The position numbers were made by a program, and so were the translations under genes. From the NCBI GenBank assembly GCA_001630475.1, contig KV419399.1, positions 642,552 to 706,551 of the forward strand: a DNA stretch of 64,000 bases. The letters run 5' to 3'. The notes below the pieces were generated by a model. The model was not told where the DNA came from, ran no database searches, and saw nothing but the letters and a program-made list of their open reading frames with translations. The stretch is from Sistotremastrum niveocremeum HHB9708 (Eukaryota; Basidiomycota; Agaricomycetes; Sistotremastrales; Sistotremastraceae). Shown piece by piece: positions 4,340 to 49,922 of this stretch. Each line of letters begins with the position of its first letter. Position 1 is the stretch's first letter.

Positions 4340-6262
4340 ATGTATAGACATGATCGTCTGAGTGTCGCCGACGCTCTGAGCGCTTTGATTCGCACCTTGG
4401 ACGTCGCGCTGAAGGAAATGTATGTACACGGATCATCAGCCGTTGAGATGGTTCTCATTTTTACTGGCGTTCAGCACTCAAATTGCATCTAATCTAAGAC
4501 TTTCTGAAGCTGAATCTGATTGTGCAGGAGTCGTCCTGAATATCGAGACATCTCGTGAGTAGTCGTTCTTGTTTTGTGATGCTTTCGAGCTAATTGGACA
4601 AGATACTAGGGGTGTCTTGCGGGATATTCTTGCAAAAACGGCATGCATACGGAACAACGTCGAAACGTCCTTCTCAGCTATGATGGTCTACGTGTCTGAG
4701 CAATCCAACTTGTACACGGATATCGCTAGCCTTCCGGAAGAGCTGCTGGCTGAGATATTGACGACATTTGTTGAGATGGAAATGGACCTGGGTCAAGGCA
4801 TGAAGAAAATTGTGTTTCCGGGAGAACGGAAGACACATTCGTGGACCAAGATCTCATCCGTGTACGTGTCACTCGTTTCTGCGCAGCAGAGCAAGCATGA
4901 CACATTCTTCCTGATGTAATCCGCAGGTGCAGACAATGGAACCGTATCATTAACCATACACCAGGGATCTGGAGCTTTCTCGACCTCTCGTGGACGCAGG
5001 AGCCAATCCTTCGGCATGCGAAGCTTTTCAAGGATGCCCCTCTCCACATCTTCTGGGACAACAACAACGGTGTGGGCGCTGCGGAATCCGACTTCATGAC
5101 CGACAACATGGCTCGCGTCGAAGATCTGAGGGTGATCTCAAGATCAACAAATCGTGCCAATCGTGATTACATGCAGTTTCTCGATCTATGGAAAACTTGG
5201 ATCACAGTGCCTGCACTCCATCTGCGCCTCCTGAACATGGTGCTGTGGGGACGCGGAGGCTCGCACCAAACTATATCCCTGCCCAACGCACCTCATTTGC
5301 GACATCTTCGCCTCTCCCGTTGTTTCACTAAAGCACCCTTTCCGTCCTCGCTTCATACCGTTCATATCTCGTCGGATGCCAGGAGCCTGAATCACAACGA
5401 CGTCGTCCGCGTTCTCTCAGAATGCCCTCAATTGAAGTCATGTGTCTTCCACATCACTCCACTGATATCTTCTACGGCCGAAAGAAATTTCGTTCCTCCC
5501 TTTCCTACTCACAAAATCTCCCTCCCTCATCTGCGCAACATGAAGATTGGCGCATTCTCCCAAGAGATACTGGAATGGATATTTATGCATTTCATTCCCC
5601 CAAGGGAAGCTACATATCGCCTATCTTACACGGTCCCTTTCTTGCCGGAAGTATCCTTCTTTGTCCCGGAAGCTTTGAAACCTCACGCGTCTCGGGCTGA
5701 TTCCCTGCGCGCATCAAACTCCGGATTTAACTTTTGGACAGAAGGGGGACTTCCCCACAGCATCACCGCACACCCTGGTGGGTATTCTAATCGATTCACA
5801 TTGGACCCAATCATCGGACTCTTCCCGAATCTTTCACAATTCTATATGGACGACTACACATTGGACTGTCACTCAATTTGGATGGACGGATTACGCCGCA
5901 TTGCTCACTTGACACTGTTGGGTATCTGTGGACGTCATAACGAACTCGCGGAGATCTTAGGAGCCTTCAGTGATCCTACTTTGTGTCCGAAGCTGGAGAT
6001 TTTGGTTTTGAGGGACCTTGGAGTTGAATCTGATCTGCCGGATCCTGATGCATTCGCAGAGAGAGATGACACTGAGGCCGAAGCACACCTCGTTAAACTC
6101 TTGAAGACTCGTGATGCTCAAAATCTTAGGATCAAGAAGCTTATTCTCTCGAGACACAGTTACACCTGGGCGAATGAGGGAAATATTGAGAGATGGATGC
6201 AACATGTCGATGCGGTGGAGCTCATGGGTAAACCGATTCCTGAGACTACTATTGAGTCTTGA
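4340..6262 (+). CDS. F-box protein with degenerate LRR tail, copy 1
   Basis: This is a probable substrate receptor of an SCF-type ubiquitin ligase. Exons read by eye are 4340-4419, 4528-4554, 4610-4861 and 4927-6262, giving 564 residues. The N-terminus (DALSALIRTLDVALKE) is a short helix. The F-box lies at about residues 70-135: YTDIASLPEELLAEILTTFV, then HSWTKISSVCRQWNRII, then TPGIWSFLDLSW. The rest is irregular leucine-rich sequence (APHLRHLRLSRCF, CPQLKSCVF, HLTLLGICG, CPKLEILVLRDL) ending in HVDAVELMGKPI. The start at MYRHDRLSV was chosen because it aligns with MNGNSHPSV of the next gene; an in-frame ATG-like start exists at 4286. The tandem neighbour at 6607-8548 is a clear duplicate with the same introns. 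The target is unknown. Confidence 0.85.
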
Positions 6263-6480
6263 ATCACGAGATACAGAATAGCTTGATGAGATAGTCTCGA
6301 ACTTTTCATGTGAGACTAACAAAGTAGGAGGGAACGATTACGGGCTTTTCGAAATTTCGCAGTAGGCATTTAAGGGCTGGAAGCGTGCTTCGCCGCCAAC
6401 GAACCTGACACTCGCTAGTAAGTTTGCTCGTCTGAAAGCTGCGGGTGCCAGATAGTATCTGGCAAAGGAGTGATTGCGGA

Positions 6481-6486
6481 TATAAA
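6481..6486 (+). promoter_or_regulatory. TATA-like box
   Basis: TATAAA lies about 120 bases upstream of the start codon of the F-box gene at 6607. Assigned from sequence and spacing only. Confidence 0.35.
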
Positions 6487-6606
6487 TTGGTATTTGTCTC
6501 TGTTTAAGGGGGCTTCATTTCACTCTTGACCTCATCGATATCGATATCTCACTGCCGACATCACTCGCAGAATCAAGGAGACAAACTCAAGGATCAGGTT
6601 GGAGCG

Positions 6607-8548
6607 ATGAATGGAAATAGTCATCCGAGTGTCGGTGAGGCTTTGAGCGCTCTCACTCGTACTCTGGAAGCTGCACTCAAAGAAGTGTATGCCCAGCAGC
6701 TGTTGCGAGGCGTCTGATTCTCACTCCAGTGCAGCGCTCAGATTGCATCGAATCTTGGACTTGCCGATTCTGAAGAGTGTCACCCAAGACTTCTTTCCAA
6801 GAATGAAACATCTCGTGAGCTTAGTTATTGAGCGTTTTGCCACAGTCTGATCGAGCTGGACAAGATCTCAGAGATGTCTTGCGCGAGGGTGTGGTGAAAA
6901 TGTCCAGCATACGGAGCAGCGTCGATTTCTCTTTCTCGGCCGCCATGGTCCACTTGTCAGAGCAATCCAACTCATACACAGATATCGCTAGCCTTCCAGA
7001 GGAGCTGCTGGTCAAAATATTGACAAAATTTGTTGAGAACGAAATGGACCTGGACCGAGGCATAATGAAGGTCCAGCTGCCAGCAAAGCGCAAGACACAT
7101 TCGTGGACCCGTATCTCGACCGTGTATGTGAGGCTCGCTTTCGTGCGACGAAGCAAGCATAATTGAGTCTGAATGATGTGATTATTAGGTGTAGGCAATG
7201 GAACCGCATCATGAAGCAGACACCAGGAATCTGGAGTTTTGTCGATCTTTCTTGGGCGCAAGATCCACTTCGTCGGCATGCGATACTCTCTAAGGATGCT
7301 CCTCTCCACATTTTCTGGAATAGCTACAACTGTCTCGACATCACTGCATTCGACTTCATGGCTGAGAATATGACCCGCATAGAGACTCTCAGGATCGTGT
7401 CAAAGTCCGCATCTACTTTCAGCAACGATCATCAAGAGTTTCGTGATCCGTGGAAGACGTGGATCACAGCGCCTGCGCCACATTTGTGCTTCCTGGAAAT
7501 CGATTTGCGGGGACGCGGAGGGTTGCCCCATTTAATATCCCTTCCCGATGCACCCCGTTTGTGGCGTCTCGACCTCGCCAATTGTTTCACTCAAGCGCCC
7601 CTTCCTTCTTCGCTTCGTAGCATCCGAGTCTCATCGGATGCAAGGAGCCTAACCCATCATGACGTCGTGCGCGTTCTCGTGGAATGCCCTTTACTGATTC
7701 TTTGTAGCATCTACATCTCCCCTAAGACGTCTTCCATGTCTGAGACGATCTTGGTCCCCGCATTTCCTTCCTCCAAAATCACCCTCCCTCGCCTACGCTA
7801 TCTGATGCTCGGCGCGTTTTCCCGCGAGATTATTGAATGGATATTCGCGCACTTCATCTTACCCAACACGGCAAGCGTTCATTTATGCGCCGTCCCTTTC
7901 TCTCAACCAGTGTCCTTCTTTGTCCCCGAAATTTTGGCACCCTACGCTCCATGGGCTGAATGTCTGCGCATATCAAAGGACGAATTCAGTTTCTGGACAC
8001 TGGCAGATGATCAATTCCACCATTCCATCTCTGCAAGCACTAGGAGATTTACCGCGCCGGACACGCTGGATCCAATCATCGGATTGTTTCCAAACCTGTC
8101 TCGGTTTTATATGGACTTTTACACACTGGAACGTCATGCCATGTGGATGGACGCATTACGCCGGCTTGGCCATTTGACGCTATTAAGCATCTGTGGACAC
8201 CATACCGAGCTCGCGGAGATCTTAGGGGCCCTCACTGATCCTACCTTATGCCCGAAACTGGAAATTTTAGCTTTGAAAACCCTGGAACTCGAACCGGATC
8301 CGTGGGATCAGTGGGATCCCTCTCCATCCGCAGACAGACACCTTGACAGAGACGATGCGGAGGCTGAAAGGCACCTCTTTACACTTCTGAAGGCTCGTGA
8401 TACTCAAAATCTTAGGATCAGAAAACTCGTTCTCCCGAGACGCAGTTACACCTGGGCGAACGAGAGTAATATTGAGAGATGGACACGACATGTTGATGCA
8501 GTGGAGCTCCTTGGGGAACCGATTTCTGGGACTACTATTGACACTTGA
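6607..8548 (+). CDS. F-box protein with degenerate LRR tail, copy 2
   Basis: This is a tandem duplicate of the gene at 4340-6262. The N-terminal helix (EALSALTRTLEAALKE) is followed by two small introns, then the F-box (YTDIASLPEELLVKILTKFV, HSWTRIS, CRQWNRIM, TPGIWSFVDLSW) and a long leucine-rich tail (APRLWRLDLANCF, LGHLTLLSICG, CPKLEILALKTL) ending HVDAVELLGEPI, with stop at 8546-8548. The final exon begins after the acceptor just before the CRQWN codons. The boundaries of the second exon (near 6780-6822) could not be settled: none of the obvious acceptors gives the phase of the first copy without a stop, so either a non-obvious acceptor is used or this copy has drifted there. Against copy 1 it has a longer acidic insert before the last helix (DPWDQWDPSPSADR). 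Confidence 0.82.
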
Positions 8549-13737: not shown

Positions 13738-16054
13738 ATGAGGTCCTATTGCTCCGTTTCAGAATTTGCTCCTTCTCTCTATGAACGCCATATACATGAT
13801 ACATCATCCAGGATTGACAACGTTCTCCCCATCCCCATTATCCTCGAGATTTTCTCATATCTCAAGCCATCGATAATGATTGAGCAAGGCAAACACTTTT
13901 GCTCTCCCAAGCATCCATGCAGTGTTGCTTTCCTAGAAATGCAGCCTTTCCTTCAATTACGGCTCGTGTGTCGTGGCTTCAATATCTTGTCTTATATGAT
14001 ATGGCCGAAACATGCTCTGGGCCAATCGTGGGGGCAGGCCGCGATAGACCCTCACATTCGAGTTCAAGCTCGATACGCTGGTTATTCGCTGGGAGGAATT
14101 ATCGAGTGGAACCACATAGATGGAAGATATCGCAATTTCCTCACGCTGCAAGAATACAATTGCGATGGTACGTGGATGATCATTGAAGCCTGAGAGTCTA
14201 TTCCTAAACTTTCCCTTGTATAGATGGATGTTCATTGGCTTATGACACCGGAACTCCAACGGGATGCAGTAAAAATATGCCGGTGGTCGTTTTCAAAGCT
14301 TTGATGCGTCAAAAACAGTATGAATCCGAACTCGATGCCTACCTATCCATCGAACAACTCCGCACTCCTTCTGACCGGTCCATCGCCCCTATGCTCATTC
14401 ATCATGATCAGTTCCCTACCGAATATCGTGAAACTGTCTATTATTTCATCCTTGAATATCTGGGGCCAACCTTGCAGGACATCCTCGCCGTGTCTTACTA
14501 CAAACGGTTTAGTGCTAAGATGACTATGGCAGTGGCTATTCAGTTGGTGAGTTGCACATTCTGTCGTCCTTCGGTCCTGCTTAAGGCTGAATTTTTGTGA
14601 CCGACCTCCTAGATCCGTAGACATCAAGCTATACATTCCATTCGCCTAATCCACAATGGCGCCAAGACCGCCAACTATTGCCTTCCTCCACATCCTAGTG
14701 CGAGCGGAGGCAAAAGCGAGGATTGTAGCCAATACGTCTCCGTCATCGATTTCGGTTTTTCCAGGTCGTATATTCCTCCACCCGAAGGAAGGGATGAACC
14801 GCAGCACAACTCAGGCAATGGAATCTTCCGACCATCGGCAATCGATCATGGAAGAAGTTCGTGTTCATCTCTTGTTTCCTTGTATGAGTGACTCAGATTG
14901 GATCACCAATAGGTTTATCCCCACGCGAGGATCTGGAGGGACTGGCTTATACACTCGCCTATCTTGCTAAAGGTTGTCTGCCTTGGTATCCAGGACCTTT
15001 CGGATACACCTCTTTCGGTCCGTATTCTGCCTATTCCCATAGGAAAAAACGCGCGGTCAGCACCCAGACCATATTCGGAGGAATGGATCCCATTTACAGC
15101 TGGTTTTTCGACTACATTATTGCAATGCCCTGGGGTCATCTCCCAGATTACGAAATGATCCTCCAAAAATTCTCTGCGAGGTGGTTCGCCAAGGGATTTG
15201 GCCCAAATCCTGGAGAATTTTCTTGGTACATTAGGCCTCATCATCCAGATTACTTCCAACCCGAATCATGGAATCATGGACCCAATTTTGCGTTGCGTAC
15301 AGAAGCCTTCCTGCGCAGATGGAAGAGCAAGGACTGGGAAATTTTTGTTCCCGGACCAACTCAAGATGAATACGAATACGAACCTCCGCTACCATCACCC
15401 TCGATGTACCGTTTGCCCCCTCCTACCCTCGACGAGCTGATATTCTTCCAACCTGAACTTCAACCGCTTCCATTGCCTGATGCCGAAGAACTTATGTATT
15501 TCCGGCAGGGCTTGTCACCGTTCCAGATTCCTTTACCGCCGGTCACACGTGAAGAATGGTTTTTTTTCACCTACGAACCTTACGAACCTTACCAAGAAAG
15601 CATGATAGCTTACGACCAGCATGGTCGTGCACCTACAGTAGACGGTCAGCATCTGACTTCTAATGTCACTCACCAAAACACTGGCGAAGGCAATGCGTTC
15701 AGTGACACCTTGCCAATACCGCGAACCCATGAACTCGACTATTTTAGCAGCGAGGTGGATGCCACTGATGTCGCACTCCCTCCTCCACACACAGACGAGA
15801 TTGATTGGTTCAAGGGTCTGGTGGACGGCGTCGATGTTCCCTTGCCGGCCGCCTCTGAGGCCGACAGTTCAGACCGGACTCCGGGGGACTTCGATATGGA
15901 TCACGAGGATTTCCAGTCCTTCGATTTCGGCAAGCCATGTCCAACCTCCACTGGCAACATCTCAGGAGTTCTCCCTGCATGGGAGGTGGCGTTACCGAGG
16001 CCAAACTTTGCAGAGTACGTGTGGTTCTTCATTGAGAATGTTGTTGCAGGGTGA
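13738..16054 (+). CDS. F-box / CK1-like pseudokinase / LPxP-repeat protein, copy 1
   Basis: Exons 13738-14167, 14224-14546, 14613-14856 and 14913-16054 join to 712 residues. An F-box-like domain (about residues 30-95) contains LPIPIILEIFSYL and PFLQLRLVCRGFN, separated by a Cys/His-containing insert (HFCSPKHPC). A kinase-like domain (about 125-350) resembles casein kinase 1: MPVVVFKAL (VAIK-like Lys), LEYLGPTLQDIL (CK1 LGPSLEDL), VIDFGFS (DFG kept) and SPREDLEGLAYTLAYL (CK1 RRDDLESLGY). The catalytic loop reads HNGAKTANYC where active kinases have HRDIKPDN, so the catalytic Asp is absent. From about residue 490 an array of LPxP...(D/E)E..FF units runs to the end (LPLPDAEELMYF, IPLPPVTREEWFFF, VALPPPHTDEIDWF, VALPRPNFAEYVWFF). 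It starts at MRSYCS, matching MRSFCS in the next copy. Likely role, inferred: an SCF adaptor that binds rather than phosphorylates its target. Confidence 0.82.
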
Positions 16055-16642
16055 CTGGTAACTTCTGTCAATGCAAAGACGAATCTTAGACGATCAATTG
16101 TATCTACATGTAGCTTGTCACCATTGTTGTAACGAAAATCAAGGGTCTGCATCCCCGAGTGGGAGCCTGAGTGGTGTTCTGTTTACTTCCGCCTGCATTA
16201 CCCAAATGAACATCAAATCGAACGACAAACTGTACCACTGATGCATTTCATAAACAGAAAACAGGCGACTCGGAAGACCCGGGCTGTACAGCTGTGCTCC
16301 GGTCGCTCCAGTGTCAGGATCTTGAATTTCGCCACGTGGTTCATCTGTAAGTTGTCTCTGCTCGTCCTGGCAACATGTATTTGTTTCAAGTCGCAACATT
16401 ATCTTCGCTAGCCCTCTGAAGCATGGCTAGCTGCTGAGACGTCCCAAGTTGAATGGAATCTCTCCTGAGAATGTTTGATCCTGCGGTGAGAGACCGGCGA
16501 AATTCAAGTTGCCGGCTAGGGACGATCGAAGTCGCCGTTACCGTGCACCTGAAGTCATTGTAAGCTCGACTTGGCCGCATGTTATGCACATGTATAAAGT
16601 GGCTTTGGATTCCCGCTCCCTCTTGCCACCACTCGCAATCCG
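16055..16642. other. intergenic between the two pseudokinase copies, with TATA box
   Basis: No gene was found. A TATAAA at 16593-16598 sits 50 bases before the ATG of the second copy and is a reasonable core promoter. Confidence 0.45.
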
Positions 16643-18961
16643 ATGAGGTCCTTCTGCTCGTTCTCGGACAACTCTCTCGTTCAGTCTTTCAATCTTTACG
16701 ACCATCTTCGATCTTACGATGACTCCATTCAATGGGCTCTCCCTGTCCCGATTATATGGAAAATACTGTCGTATCTTGAAATGCCACCTGACATTATAGA
16801 ACAAGAAGACCATTACTGTTCGCCAGACCATCCTTGTCGCAAAATCATCACCACTGTGATCCGTCCGTTCCTGCAGCTCGGGCACGTATGCCACAGCTTC
16901 AAGTTGATGTCTCGAGATCTGTATTCTCGTCGCCGTCGTGGAGAGACTTGGACAGACACGCAACCAGACCCTTACCACCTCAAGTCTATCGTTCGATGGA
17001 AACATATAGATGGGAGGTACCGACACTTGATGAGTTTGCAAGATTACCGAGATGACGGTCGGTCTCTTGGAATGTTATTCACATCTTCCACGTTCAACAG
17101 TTGAACAGAAGGCTGCTCTCTCGCGTATGATACTGGAACTTCCGTTGGTTGCCACCGGGATCTAATGCCGCTGGTTGTCGTGAAAGTCCTCAGCGGTTAT
17201 AGATACGAGACTCCTGCAGAGCTCGCGGCTTACTCTGCTATAGAGAGTGATGATGCCACTGTTGACGTCTCTGCTTTCGCGTCCATGCTCTCCCATGGCC
17301 AGTTCGAGTATGAGTGGAACACGATCGATTACTTCGTCCTGGACTATTTAGGCCCGACTCTTCTCGATGTTATGCAGCGTTCCTGCTACTCCAGGTTTAC
17401 GGGAAAGATGACGATGGCTGTTGCAATACAGTTGGTACGTGACCATTACAAGCGATGTGTCTCTGAAGCTCCCTCATACTCATGTCTGAACGACACATAC
17501 TGACTGTTTTTCTCTGCAGCTTCGCAGGCATCGTGACACTCATTCCGTTCATCTTATACACAATGGTGCGAAACCTGCAAATTATTGTTTACCACCGAAC
17601 CCAGGCACAGTGGATGACGACATCGTCAATACAAAAATATACATGATTGACTTCGGTTTTTCGACCTTCTTCACACCTCCATCCGAAGGAGGTTCCCCAT
17701 ATGACGTATGTGGGTTTTCAGGCGGCAATCCATGTTTTCGTTCAACGGGTTGTGATGCTGGAGACAGTGAGATGAATTTCATATCAATCGTTTAATTGAA
17801 ACCATGGCTTACGTGCCATATAAATAGGTGTATCTCCCCGCGATGACCTGGAAGGACTGGCCTATACTCTGGCTTACCTCGGAAAGGGCTCTCTCCCATG
17901 GTGGCGAGGGCCAAATGGACATTGGTACTCAGAGGAATATCGATGCAAATACGATGAAAAGGCCGATGCTGGAGTCAATGTCATCTTTGGAGGCATGGAC
18001 CCCATCTATACTTGGTTCTTTGAACTTGTCAAAGGCATGTCATGGGGTGAGATGCCGGACTATGATGCCCTCATTCAAAAATTCTGCGAGCGATGGATCG
18101 AGAAAGGGTACGGATCCGCCCCGGGTGAATACGACTGGTGGATCAAGTCCACGAAGAAAGAAAATGTGCGGCATGAATATCTTTGGCGAAGATGGTGTTT
18201 CACCGGTTGGGAAGTTTTCTTTCCCGGGCCAACTGACGACTATGACGAATACGAACCACCACTGCCAAAGCCAGCCGGAGTCGAGCTACCCAGTGTTGAC
18301 GATGAAGAATTGCTCTTCTTCGATCCAGAACGGAAAGCCTTGCCAGAGCCGGATGAAGATGAACTTCTTTTCTTTAGGCGAGGAATGGATCCAATCCATC
18401 TTCCTCTTCCGGACATTTCTCCGGAGGAAACAGAGTTCTTTCACCATCAATTGTTTGATGCCAGTGTCTTCTCACTAGTACTGAAACTTCCGCGTGTTTT
18501 GCGATCACCTACGCTGGAAGGAATGGCGGAATTTTTCCTCCAGGCGGAAAATCTTAACGTGCGCTCAAATCTGTTTTGATGACATACAAAACGACATAGT
18601 CAAACCTCACGCGATGCTCTCACAGCCCGATCATTGTGAAACTTTCGATGCCACTGAAGTCTCTCTCCCACTTCCAGACTGGAACGAGCTGGAAATGTTC
18701 AAAGGGCAAATGAGCGCAAACGATGTCGCATTGCCCAGTGTTTCTGACGAGGAAAAAGAGGAACTCGAGCTCGCTCTTTTACCAAAGTATTACGGTGAGG
18801 ATTGGAACCTATGCACAATTCACTATCAATATACTGAGCACCTGCCAGACTCTGAAATCATTCAGCGAGAACTGGAAACAGCTTTGTGGATTCCGTTACC
18901 AAGACCAGATTTCGACGAATATTGCTGGTTCTTCGTTAGAAGACGAAGGCGCAGGTGGTAG
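16643..18961 (+). CDS. F-box / CK1-like pseudokinase / LPxP-repeat protein, copy 2
   Basis: This is a tandem paralogue of the gene at 13738-16054 with the same first three intron positions. Exons 16643-17057, 17109-17434, 17520-17766, 17828-18477 and 18521-18961 give 692 residues; the last intron is only 43 nt and is absent from copy 1. The F-box part reads LPVPIIWKILSYL...PFLQLGHVCHSF with insert HYCSPDHPC. The kinase part has MPLVVVKVL, LDYLGPTLLDVM, IDFGFSTFF and SPRDDLEGLAYTLAYLGKG. The catalytic loop is HNGAKPANYC: Lys and Asn of the HRDxKxxN motif remain but the Asp is Gly. Tail repeats include VELPSVDDEELLFF, ALPEPDEDELLFF, LPLPDISPEETEFF, VSLPLPDWNELEMF and IPLPRPDFDEYCWFF, and the protein ends in an Arg run. 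Both copies have lost the same catalytic residue, so the loss predates the duplication. Confidence 0.82.
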
Positions 18962-47561: not shown

Positions 47562-49922
47562 TCAGTAGTTGAAGTGGAATGAATCCTGAGTGGGAGTAGG
47601 AAGAGGGCTGGAGAGCATTTGCAATCCAGTGAGAGATGGTTGATAAGGCTCAACTCCAAGCTCTTTCAACATCTCCGAAGTGAACCCAGGCATATCAGAC
47701 ATATAATCCATACTCTCATCTCCGTTCATACCAACGCTCATAGGAGCATCAGGAACAGGAGACGCAGGGCCTGAAGTAGAAGTCGGAGCACAAAGATGAA
47801 GACCCTTCGTATAGTTCATAAGCGCATCCCGCGAGCCGTGGGACATCGAGGTATTAGGCTCGTAGAATTGCATGTAATCGAGTAACGAAGAATCGGAGAC
47901 GGGAGGTTGAGGGATGGAGTCGAGGACGCCCATGTGCATGTGCGCGAGACCGAGGTGGATATCCATCTCGAGGTTCTCGAGATTGGGGTTCTCTTCTGTT
48001 GCGGAGAGAGGTGCAGTGGGACTGCGAGGGACGGAGAAGTCGTCGTCTGAGTATGAAGGAGTGGATGGGCCGGGAGAGGATGATTCGGCTGATGGACCTG
48101 AGTCGGAGTCGAATGGGACACCGAGATAAGGTGAGAGGTAATTTGACTGTGAATGCGCGGTGAGGGGGCTGGGAGAAGGAGCGTAAGAGGAGAGGCTGGA
48201 AGATGAGGCTGAGGCTGAGAGTGAGGTGAGAGCAGTCTCGATCTTCAACGATGGGTGAAGAGTCGGGATAGCGATCTGGGAATTTTGGGAATTGAAATCT
48301 GGCAAGGACTGCGCAGAGTGATTCCAAGACATGAAGAAAGCGTTATCTGCGTGGTCCTGTTCTTGCTCGAGAGGAGAGATGGGCGACATGATTGCGGACG
48401 GCTCGGGGGCTCTCGACTCGGCAGTCTCGAAGCTGAAGCCGCCGAAGAAAGGATGCGAGGATTCGACGGCTTGGGAGTGGGAGTGACCGAAATCAAAGTT
48501 GGGTGGGAAACGAGTGAGAGTGGCGGAGGAGGGAGGAGAAGCACTGCGGGCTGAACGACGTCTCCAATTACGCTCTGGATAAGGAGACTGTTCAGACTGC
48601 GGTACGTCGAAGAAAGTCTCAGTGGCGGACGCTCCGATGGGCATAGAGGTGGTAGCACGAAGTGCCTTCGGTTTGCGGGCGGCGGGAGGAGATGAAGGAC
48701 TAGGGAAAGCCGACTGGGCGGTGGGAAGGAGTTGTTGGGGTACGGGAGGGCACGAAGAGCTTCTTCGACCGAGTCCAGCAGCTTCGAGCTCGCGAGACTG
48801 GGGAGTTTGGATCTCGGTGAGCTTCAAAGAGTCCTTGCGGTTGAAGAAAGCAGATGCGCCGAAACCGTTCTCGTCGTCGAACTTGCGCACCAACTCTTCG
48901 AGCTTCTCTCCTTTATGTCCGGCCACGAGCAGCCTTGCGATCTGTTCGCAACGACGGGGGTCCTCGAAAGGGCGAGGGGGGAGAGTTCGCTTTGAGCGAG
49001 ACTTGGTGGGAGAAGAGGGTTCGTTCGACTCGGACTTGGACGTTACGGTGAACGTCTTGGTCTTGCCGTCCTCATCTGCAGTCGTATTGACGAACTTGGG
49101 AATTTTCTTTTTCTCCGGTTTCTTAGTCGTAACCTCTTCGCCACTGCTCCCGCCTCCGCCTCCACCACCAGGTACGCCTCCTCTCACAAATCTATAGTCG
49201 GGATATTTCTTCTTATGTTCTGCCCTGACCGCACGTGCCCGATCTTGCCATACCTGGCGCTCCTCGAACGACAGTCGTTGCCAACAGGCGCCAACAATTT
49301 TTGACAGCTGCGAGTGGTTGCCCTCGATCGTGCCGGGGATGTGCTGTGACAGCGAAGACGCAAGTCAGCGTGAGAACAAAAGGAAGTATAGAGATGCCGT
49401 GCGAAGATGTCGAAGCGCCGGAAGAAGCAGCACTTCTAGCGGGACGTGCAAATATATGCAAATATGCCGGCGGAGACAATGGAACGGCAAGAGAGTCGAA
49501 GTAAGTGGCGGAAATATAGACTCACCTGTTGCTTTATGAAGCTACTCCTGAAGAGAATGAACGCGTTTGGTGGTCGTGGGATGTGGTTATTGCTCCTTTT
49601 CTTGCCGTGATGTGGTTTGGCCTTTGAAAGAGTCTCATAGTCATCGACAAGGGGAGCGGGGAAGAGCAAGTCCGATGGCGTGCTGGAAATAAAGGAGAGC
49701 GAGCCGTCGGTCTCGAGAGAGTGGAATGAATCGGCAGTCATGTTCGGTGCGAATGCGATGGTTTGATTCTGTTCCTCAGAGATTGGCGGCGTAGAAACAT
49801 TCCAGCAAGTCTCGTAGGCTGAAATTAAAAACGATAAGATTCTAGCGGCGGAATATATGCGCTCGGACGGGACACTAACGCTTTGATGAAAAGGTTGTCG
49901 GGGACTTTGGCGTTCGAGGCAT
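47562..49922 (-). CDS. HMG-box (MATA_HMG type) transcription factor
   Basis: This is a sequence-specific regulator. The model starts at ATG 49922 (MPRTPKSPTTFSSK); a short intron (donor GTTAGT) joins it in frame to PYETCWNVSTPPI. A later in-frame start at 49741 (MTADSFHSLE) is possible. The HMG box covers about residues 93-164: HIPRPPNAFILFRSSFIKQQ, then, after a 182-nt intron (49344-49525), HIPGTIEGNHSQLSKIVGAC, WQRLSFEERQVWQDRARAVR, AEHKKKYPDYRF. The RPPNAFILFR start and the intron inside the box are typical of fungal MATA_HMG factors. A Gly run follows, then basic KKPEKKKIPKF, and a long Ser/Pro-rich region ending TPTQDSFHFNY (about 705 residues). Relatives control mating, sexual development or cap expansion in mushrooms; which applies here is not determined. 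Confidence 0.88.

Follow-up and report, generated by a model that had tools for sequence, protein, structure and literature searches.

F-box proteins bind Skp1 and choose their targets through a second domain, and they are known for picking those targets with leucine-rich repeats (LRR), WD40 repeats or other repeat folds. In the window analysed here, a stretch of 64,000 nucleotides from the basidiomycete Sistotremastrum niveocremeum HHB9708 (assembly GCA_001630475.1, contig KV419399.1, positions 642,552 to 706,551 of the forward strand), two tandem genes are modelled that each join a split F-box, a pseudokinase domain of the casein kinase 1 (CK1) type and an acidic repeat tail in one chain. 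With a probability of roughly 0.55, each of these genes is read as encoding a substrate receptor of a Skp1-cullin-F-box (SCF) ubiquitin ligase that would bind its targets via the CK1 pseudokinase together with a multivalent tail.

The two F-box halves LP..(6)I..YL and L..VC..F are common to the window genes and the described F-box receptors (Fbxw with WD40, Fbxl with LRR, FBXO), whereas here an insert lies inside the F-box and the second part is a CK1 pseudokinase. The likeness to the CK1 family (CK1 gamma/delta, Hrr25, Yck) covers the C-lobe from the hinge LGPTL on and includes the RDDLE..LPW stretch; in contrast to those kinases, the Arg and Asp of the HRD motif are replaced, the glycine loop is unrecognisable, the anion pocket is not kept, and an F-box and a repeat tail are fused to the domain. 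The family can be described as a putative F-box receptor variant with a CK1 pseudokinase, CK1-like by sequence and, to judge by its residues, probably not an active CK1. VRK3 is a CK1-group pseudokinase whose catalytic residues have been lost; to our knowledge it has neither an F-box nor an LP repeat tail, and its match to a profile built from four copies of the family is weak (E=0.00035), weaker than that of the CK1s.

The Tribbles pseudokinases act as ubiquitin-ligase adaptors on a kinase-like fold, and they and the SPA proteins may be regarded as the nearest analogues in principle; we know of no member of either group that is of CK1 type or bears an F-box. SPA1, acting with COP1, is likewise a ligase subunit with a kinase-like fold, and is described as linked to Cul4 and COP1 and as carrying WD40 repeats (PMC8024647). 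In a published survey of fungal F-box proteins, the partner domains listed are WD40, LRR and ankyrin; its main text nowhere contains the word kinase (PMC7991009). No account of an architecture combining F-box, CK1 pseudokinase and tail was found in the open-access literature among the matches listed. Members of this architecture are nevertheless likely to exist elsewhere; none was confirmed in viral and bacterial/archaeal contigs, collections that are not fungal.

Two tandem genes and three paralogues

The spliced gene models lie on the plus strand at 13738-16054 (gene 1, 712 aa) and 16643-18961 (gene 2, 684 aa), and models with GT-AG introns of 51-85 bases recovered the coordinates that the first-pass annotation had given for both. 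Splice sites were picked by hand for an open, homologous reading, so that the models are predictions, and the start codon in each case is the first in-frame Met of its open frame. The two products are identical at 294/725 aligned positions, and the tandem duplication appears to be old since synonymous sites are near saturation (proportion of synonymous differences, pS, 0.79 overall). The intron at 18559-18625, ahead of exon 5, is modelled in gene 2 only. The exons are as follows.

13738..14167, plus strand: gene 1 exon 1, MRS..C start (conserved), F-box in two halves around an HFCSPKHPC insert (residues ~29-85), linker
14224..14546, plus strand: gene 1 exon 2, GCSLAYDTGT block, VVFK with the putative beta-3 Lys, a Glu that may be that of alpha-C, hinge EYLGPTLQDI
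14613..14856, plus strand: gene 1 exon 3, catalytic loop LIHNGAKTAN, IDFGFS
14913..16054, plus strand: gene 1 exon 4, remaining CK1-like C-lobe (CK1 match to residue ~438), repeat tail (~482-712), stop
16643..17057, plus strand: gene 2 exon 1, F-box in two halves around an HYCSPDHPC insert (residues ~32-95), linker
17109..17434, plus strand: gene 2 exon 2, GCSLAYDTGT block, VVVK, hinge DYLGPTLLDV
17520..17766, plus strand: gene 2 exon 3, catalytic loop LIHNGAKPAN, IDFGFS
17828..18558, plus strand: gene 2 exon 4, C-lobe (SPRDDLEGLAYTLAYLGKGSLPW), first tail repeats
18626..18961, plus strand: gene 2 exon 5, remaining repeat tail, LPRPDFDEYCWFF near the end, stop

A whole-assembly search found three further copies on contig C46, with their parts in the same order.

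C46 95669-97808, plus strand: copy a, with a reading-frame change near residue 200
C46 103978-106069, minus strand: copy b2
C46 106539-108718, minus strand: copy b1

All other assembly matches, weak ones with E 9e-6 to 0.009, fall within four canonical CK1 loci, the match counts being lower bounds; when the N-terminal part of b2 and its tail are searched separately, each matches only the five loci. The frame change of copy a (L038 ~2340-2400) lies inside the kinase-like part and may reflect either decay to a pseudogene or an assembly error. Through duplication the genome has come to hold five or more of these genes, and in one of them the reading frame is changed.

The initial proposal that an F-box, a CK1-type pseudokinase and a repeat tail belong to one gene model is borne out in this material, the same order being present at all five loci. 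It could be objected that the fusion is an artefact of joined neighbouring genes, as splice sites were set manually and with the help of similarity and the gene models are predicted. However, the artefact would have to account for five loci with the same part order, for intron sites that agree and for a conserved exon 2 block without an upstream Met, and it is regarded as highly improbable; the fivefold recurrence of the order led to its rejection. The four intact copies share their intron positions and phases, with the first b2 intron one alignment column off; this agreement is partly built in, as likeness to the window genes helped to decide the splice sites of b1 and b2. In the exon 2 open frame no Met stands ahead of the GCS[LV]AYDTGT block in any of the five copies, which favours a transcript starting in the F-box exon. 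Between b1 and b2 the ratio of nonsynonymous to synonymous change (dN/dS, from a simple counting script) is 0.34 for the F-box region, 0.16 for the kinase part and 0.23 for the tail. As far as gene structure can show, the fusion appears to be a real, duplicated and selectively maintained family in this fungus.

In b2, exons 2-4 lie in one open frame of 555 aa (L039, reverse-complement 4892-6556). The introns between them, of 60 and 66 bases, have lengths divisible by three and contain no stop, so that their retention would still yield a readable protein.

A CK1-type domain with an altered catalytic loop

When searched against the PDB with phmmer, residues 213-436 of gene 2 (E=3.2e-23) and residues 218-438 of gene 1 (E=1.8e-19) both gave CK1 as top match, in agreement with the CK1 homology initially suspected for the two proteins, and the four-copy profile found CK1 homology at E 3.1e-26. 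By sequence the domain is thus of CK1 type from the hinge onward. Among the four full proteins, b1 and b2 match the Pfam Pkinase model, under its cut-off, and NCBIfam gives a single weak kinase match (1/4, E 0.033). Membership of the likewise kinase-like FunK1 family (Pkinase_fungal, PF17667) was considered and rejected: no PF17667 match occurs in the four full proteins, and the five loci are absent from the 38 matches of this model in the genome, matches that are in keeping with an agaricomycete. A cluster of FunK1-type matches was seen at ~400000-461000 of contig C13.

The catalytic loop reads H[NT]GAK[PT]AN in all five copies (HNGAKTAN in gene 1, HNGAKPAN in gene 2). Gly is aligned with the catalytic Asp site of CK1 and Asn or Thr with the Arg site, so that the HRD Asp expected of an active CK1 is missing from 5/5 copies; the loop Lys and Asn and the DFG are retained in 5/5. 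Replacement of the catalytic Asp with a kept DFG, as first noticed in the window genes, therefore extends to every copy. D-I-K is retained at the four canonical CK1 loci of this genome that were inspected, at one of them with an intron directly after. A kinase that loses the HRD Asp can usually no longer transfer phosphate.

Toward the N-terminus of the domain, two residues are invariant in the four aligned copies, the VVxK Lys and a Glu that follows it 11-12 residues downstream; by position only, they would fit the beta-3 Lys and the alpha-C Glu. Of the kept VVK Lys in the first-pass annotation, the invariant Lys stands, but gene 1 reads VVFK and the assignment is positional in an N-lobe without a significant PDB match. 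No GxGxxG glycine loop can be recognised; VVxK is preceded in 5/5 copies by GCS[LV]AYDTGT, in a stretch whose alignment to CK1 is not reliable.

The same residues bear on whether the CK1-like domain is still catalytic, either as a kinase with another base or as a non-phosphate transferase like selenoprotein O (SelO), in which case the F-box would bring an enzyme and not a mere scaffold to the SCF complex. Such activity would suit the identity of the loop Lys, Asn and DFG in all five copies and the dN/dS of the kinase part, the lowest of the three parts. SelO lacks the catalytic Asp yet AMPylates (PMC12409994), and the E3 subunit SPA1, whose kinase-like domain is weakly conserved, is said to have shown kinase activity (PMC8024647); going by these precedents, missing or weakly conserved kinase residues are no proof of inactivity. 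On the other side stand the unrecognisable glycine loop and the replacement of two HRD residues, the Arg and the Asp, and SelO is absent among the PDB matches listed, a search in which no direct comparison with SelO was made. A catalytic domain is considered quite unlikely.

Binding of nucleotide is a separate matter. As for the ATP sensing initially proposed, the C-lobe nucleotide-binding residues are retained but the glycine loop cannot be recognised; given the loop Lys, Asn and DFG nucleotide binding could be possible. A variant of the receptor reading builds on this, in which SCF receptors with an Asp-less CK1 fold would still bind nucleotide and work either as a target-binding switch gated by ATP or through transferase activity of another chemistry, the LP..DE..F tail serving as a pseudosubstrate or lock in cis; it is considered decidedly improbable.

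It had also been suggested that the kinase fold could recognise phospho-peptides. In CK1 the binding of phospho-primed substrates depends on an anion pocket whose Arg and Lys we take to be R178 and K224 of CK1 delta. The position of the TGTARY Arg is occupied by I in gene 1, C in gene 2, N in b1, N in b2 and Y in copy a, where an Arg stands one place earlier, and that of the second pocket Lys by P, E, Q and E in the four aligned copies, the alignment being weak in this region. The pocket residues are thus not those of CK1, and phospho-peptide binding in the CK1 manner gains no support, as neither the Arg nor the Lys is retained at the aligned places.

The repeat tail

The tail of ~186-231 residues is rich in Pro, Glu and Asp, and its repeats follow the pattern LPxx(x)[DE]E..[FL]. 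These were initially described as LPxP repeats; the array itself is upheld, but the strict LPxP form covers only part of the units and the longer pattern describes them better. With that pattern, which was written after viewing the sequences and allows one overlapping reading each in gene 1, gene 2 and b2, the tails hold 5 (gene 1), 8 (gene 2), 4 (b1), 6 (b2) and 4 (a) units, and shuffled tails a mean of 0.06-0.26 and a maximum of 3 (5000 shuffles each). Strict LPxP occurs 6, 5, 2, 4 and 2 times in gene 1, gene 2, b1, b2 and a, counts that were reached by a fraction of 0, 0, 0.0066, 0 and 0.0134 of the shuffles, respectively. In all five copies the first two units begin 18 residues apart, and LPxPxFxEYxWFF stands near the C-terminus. 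The LP of the tail unit resembles the LP at the start of the F-box, which is noted as an idea only.

The split F-box

Among all 24,736 Pfam models, PF12937 (F-box-like) is the best match of gene 1 (17.3 bits, E=0.0042) and the sole match of gene 2 (17.0 bits, E=0.005). The F-box call for both genes is thereby supported by a profile, but the uncut scores lie below the cut-off of 24.3. An F-box-like match is present in 3/4 full proteins at E up to 10, and in 4/5 uncut N-terminal regions, with 0/5 above the cut-off. The halves LP..(6)I..YL and L..VC..F are separated by an insert bearing H[FY]CSPxxPC, which is the likely reason for the low scores. When the insert (~25-28 residues) is excised, all five copies match F-box-like (gene 1 32, gene 2 27.2, a 25, b1 23 and b2 21 bits) and 3/5 pass the cut-off, while 0/10 shuffled controls of the excised F-box match any family; the excision points were set with the F-box in mind, a choice for which the shuffles give no control. 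Membership of the F-box family by profile is accepted with the reservation that these points were chosen by the analyst.

Several observations weigh against reading the genes as SCF receptors with a CK1 pseudokinase. The uncut F-box scores under the Pfam cut-off in every copy, the uncut N-terminal region of b2 has no F-box match in Pfam, and b1 and b2 (2/5) stay below the cut-off even with the insert excised. A profile of the N-terminal part gave 0 matches in the PDB at E up to 10, and a profile of the N-lobe only gave no significant PDB match (two, at E 0.61 and 1.5). Furthermore, some F-box proteins work outside SCF complexes.

Some of these points would also suit a role outside SCF, in which the N-terminal part is another small helical domain, or binds Skp1 without forming a ligase, and the protein acts as a regulator or decoy in a CK1 pathway. 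Such a role could draw on the sub-cut-off uncut scores, with no match at all in b2, on an insert of ~25-28 residues with a His/Cys motif inside the F-box, and on an F-box-part profile without a PDB match. It has to contend with the excision result, in which 5/5 copies become F-box-like and 3/5 exceed the cut-off against 0/10 shuffles, and is judged unlikely.

Proposed function as an SCF receptor

Under the preferred reading, that of an SCF substrate receptor, the split F-box would bind Skp1, for which a match is present in the genome (E 1.1e-20). The CK1-fold domain, its catalytic Asp gone, would probably not carry out the usual phosphorylation and may instead serve as a scaffold for protein binding on which targets or regulators are presented. 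The acidic LP..DE..F motifs of the tail could make docking multivalent, with targets or the protein's own pseudokinase as the partner. Pseudokinase and acidic tail together would then form the target-selecting part of the receptor.

Other features of the window

Two regions elsewhere in the window were noted.

4700-8548, plus strand: tandem genes (open reading frames 4901-6262 and 7163-8548) resembling common fungal F-box proteins, with LPEELLAEIL near 4730 and then QWNRI...TPGIWSF; the frame 4901-6262 alone has no Pfam match at E up to 1
47562-49364, minus strand: open frame of 600 aa whose start resembles, by eye, an HMG-box transcription factor

Implications

If the recognition part of these proteins is indeed a pseudokinase, a kinase fold would be tied directly to protein degradation within one chain. 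The family would then be a natural example of a kinase-like fold that has evolved for ligase targeting.

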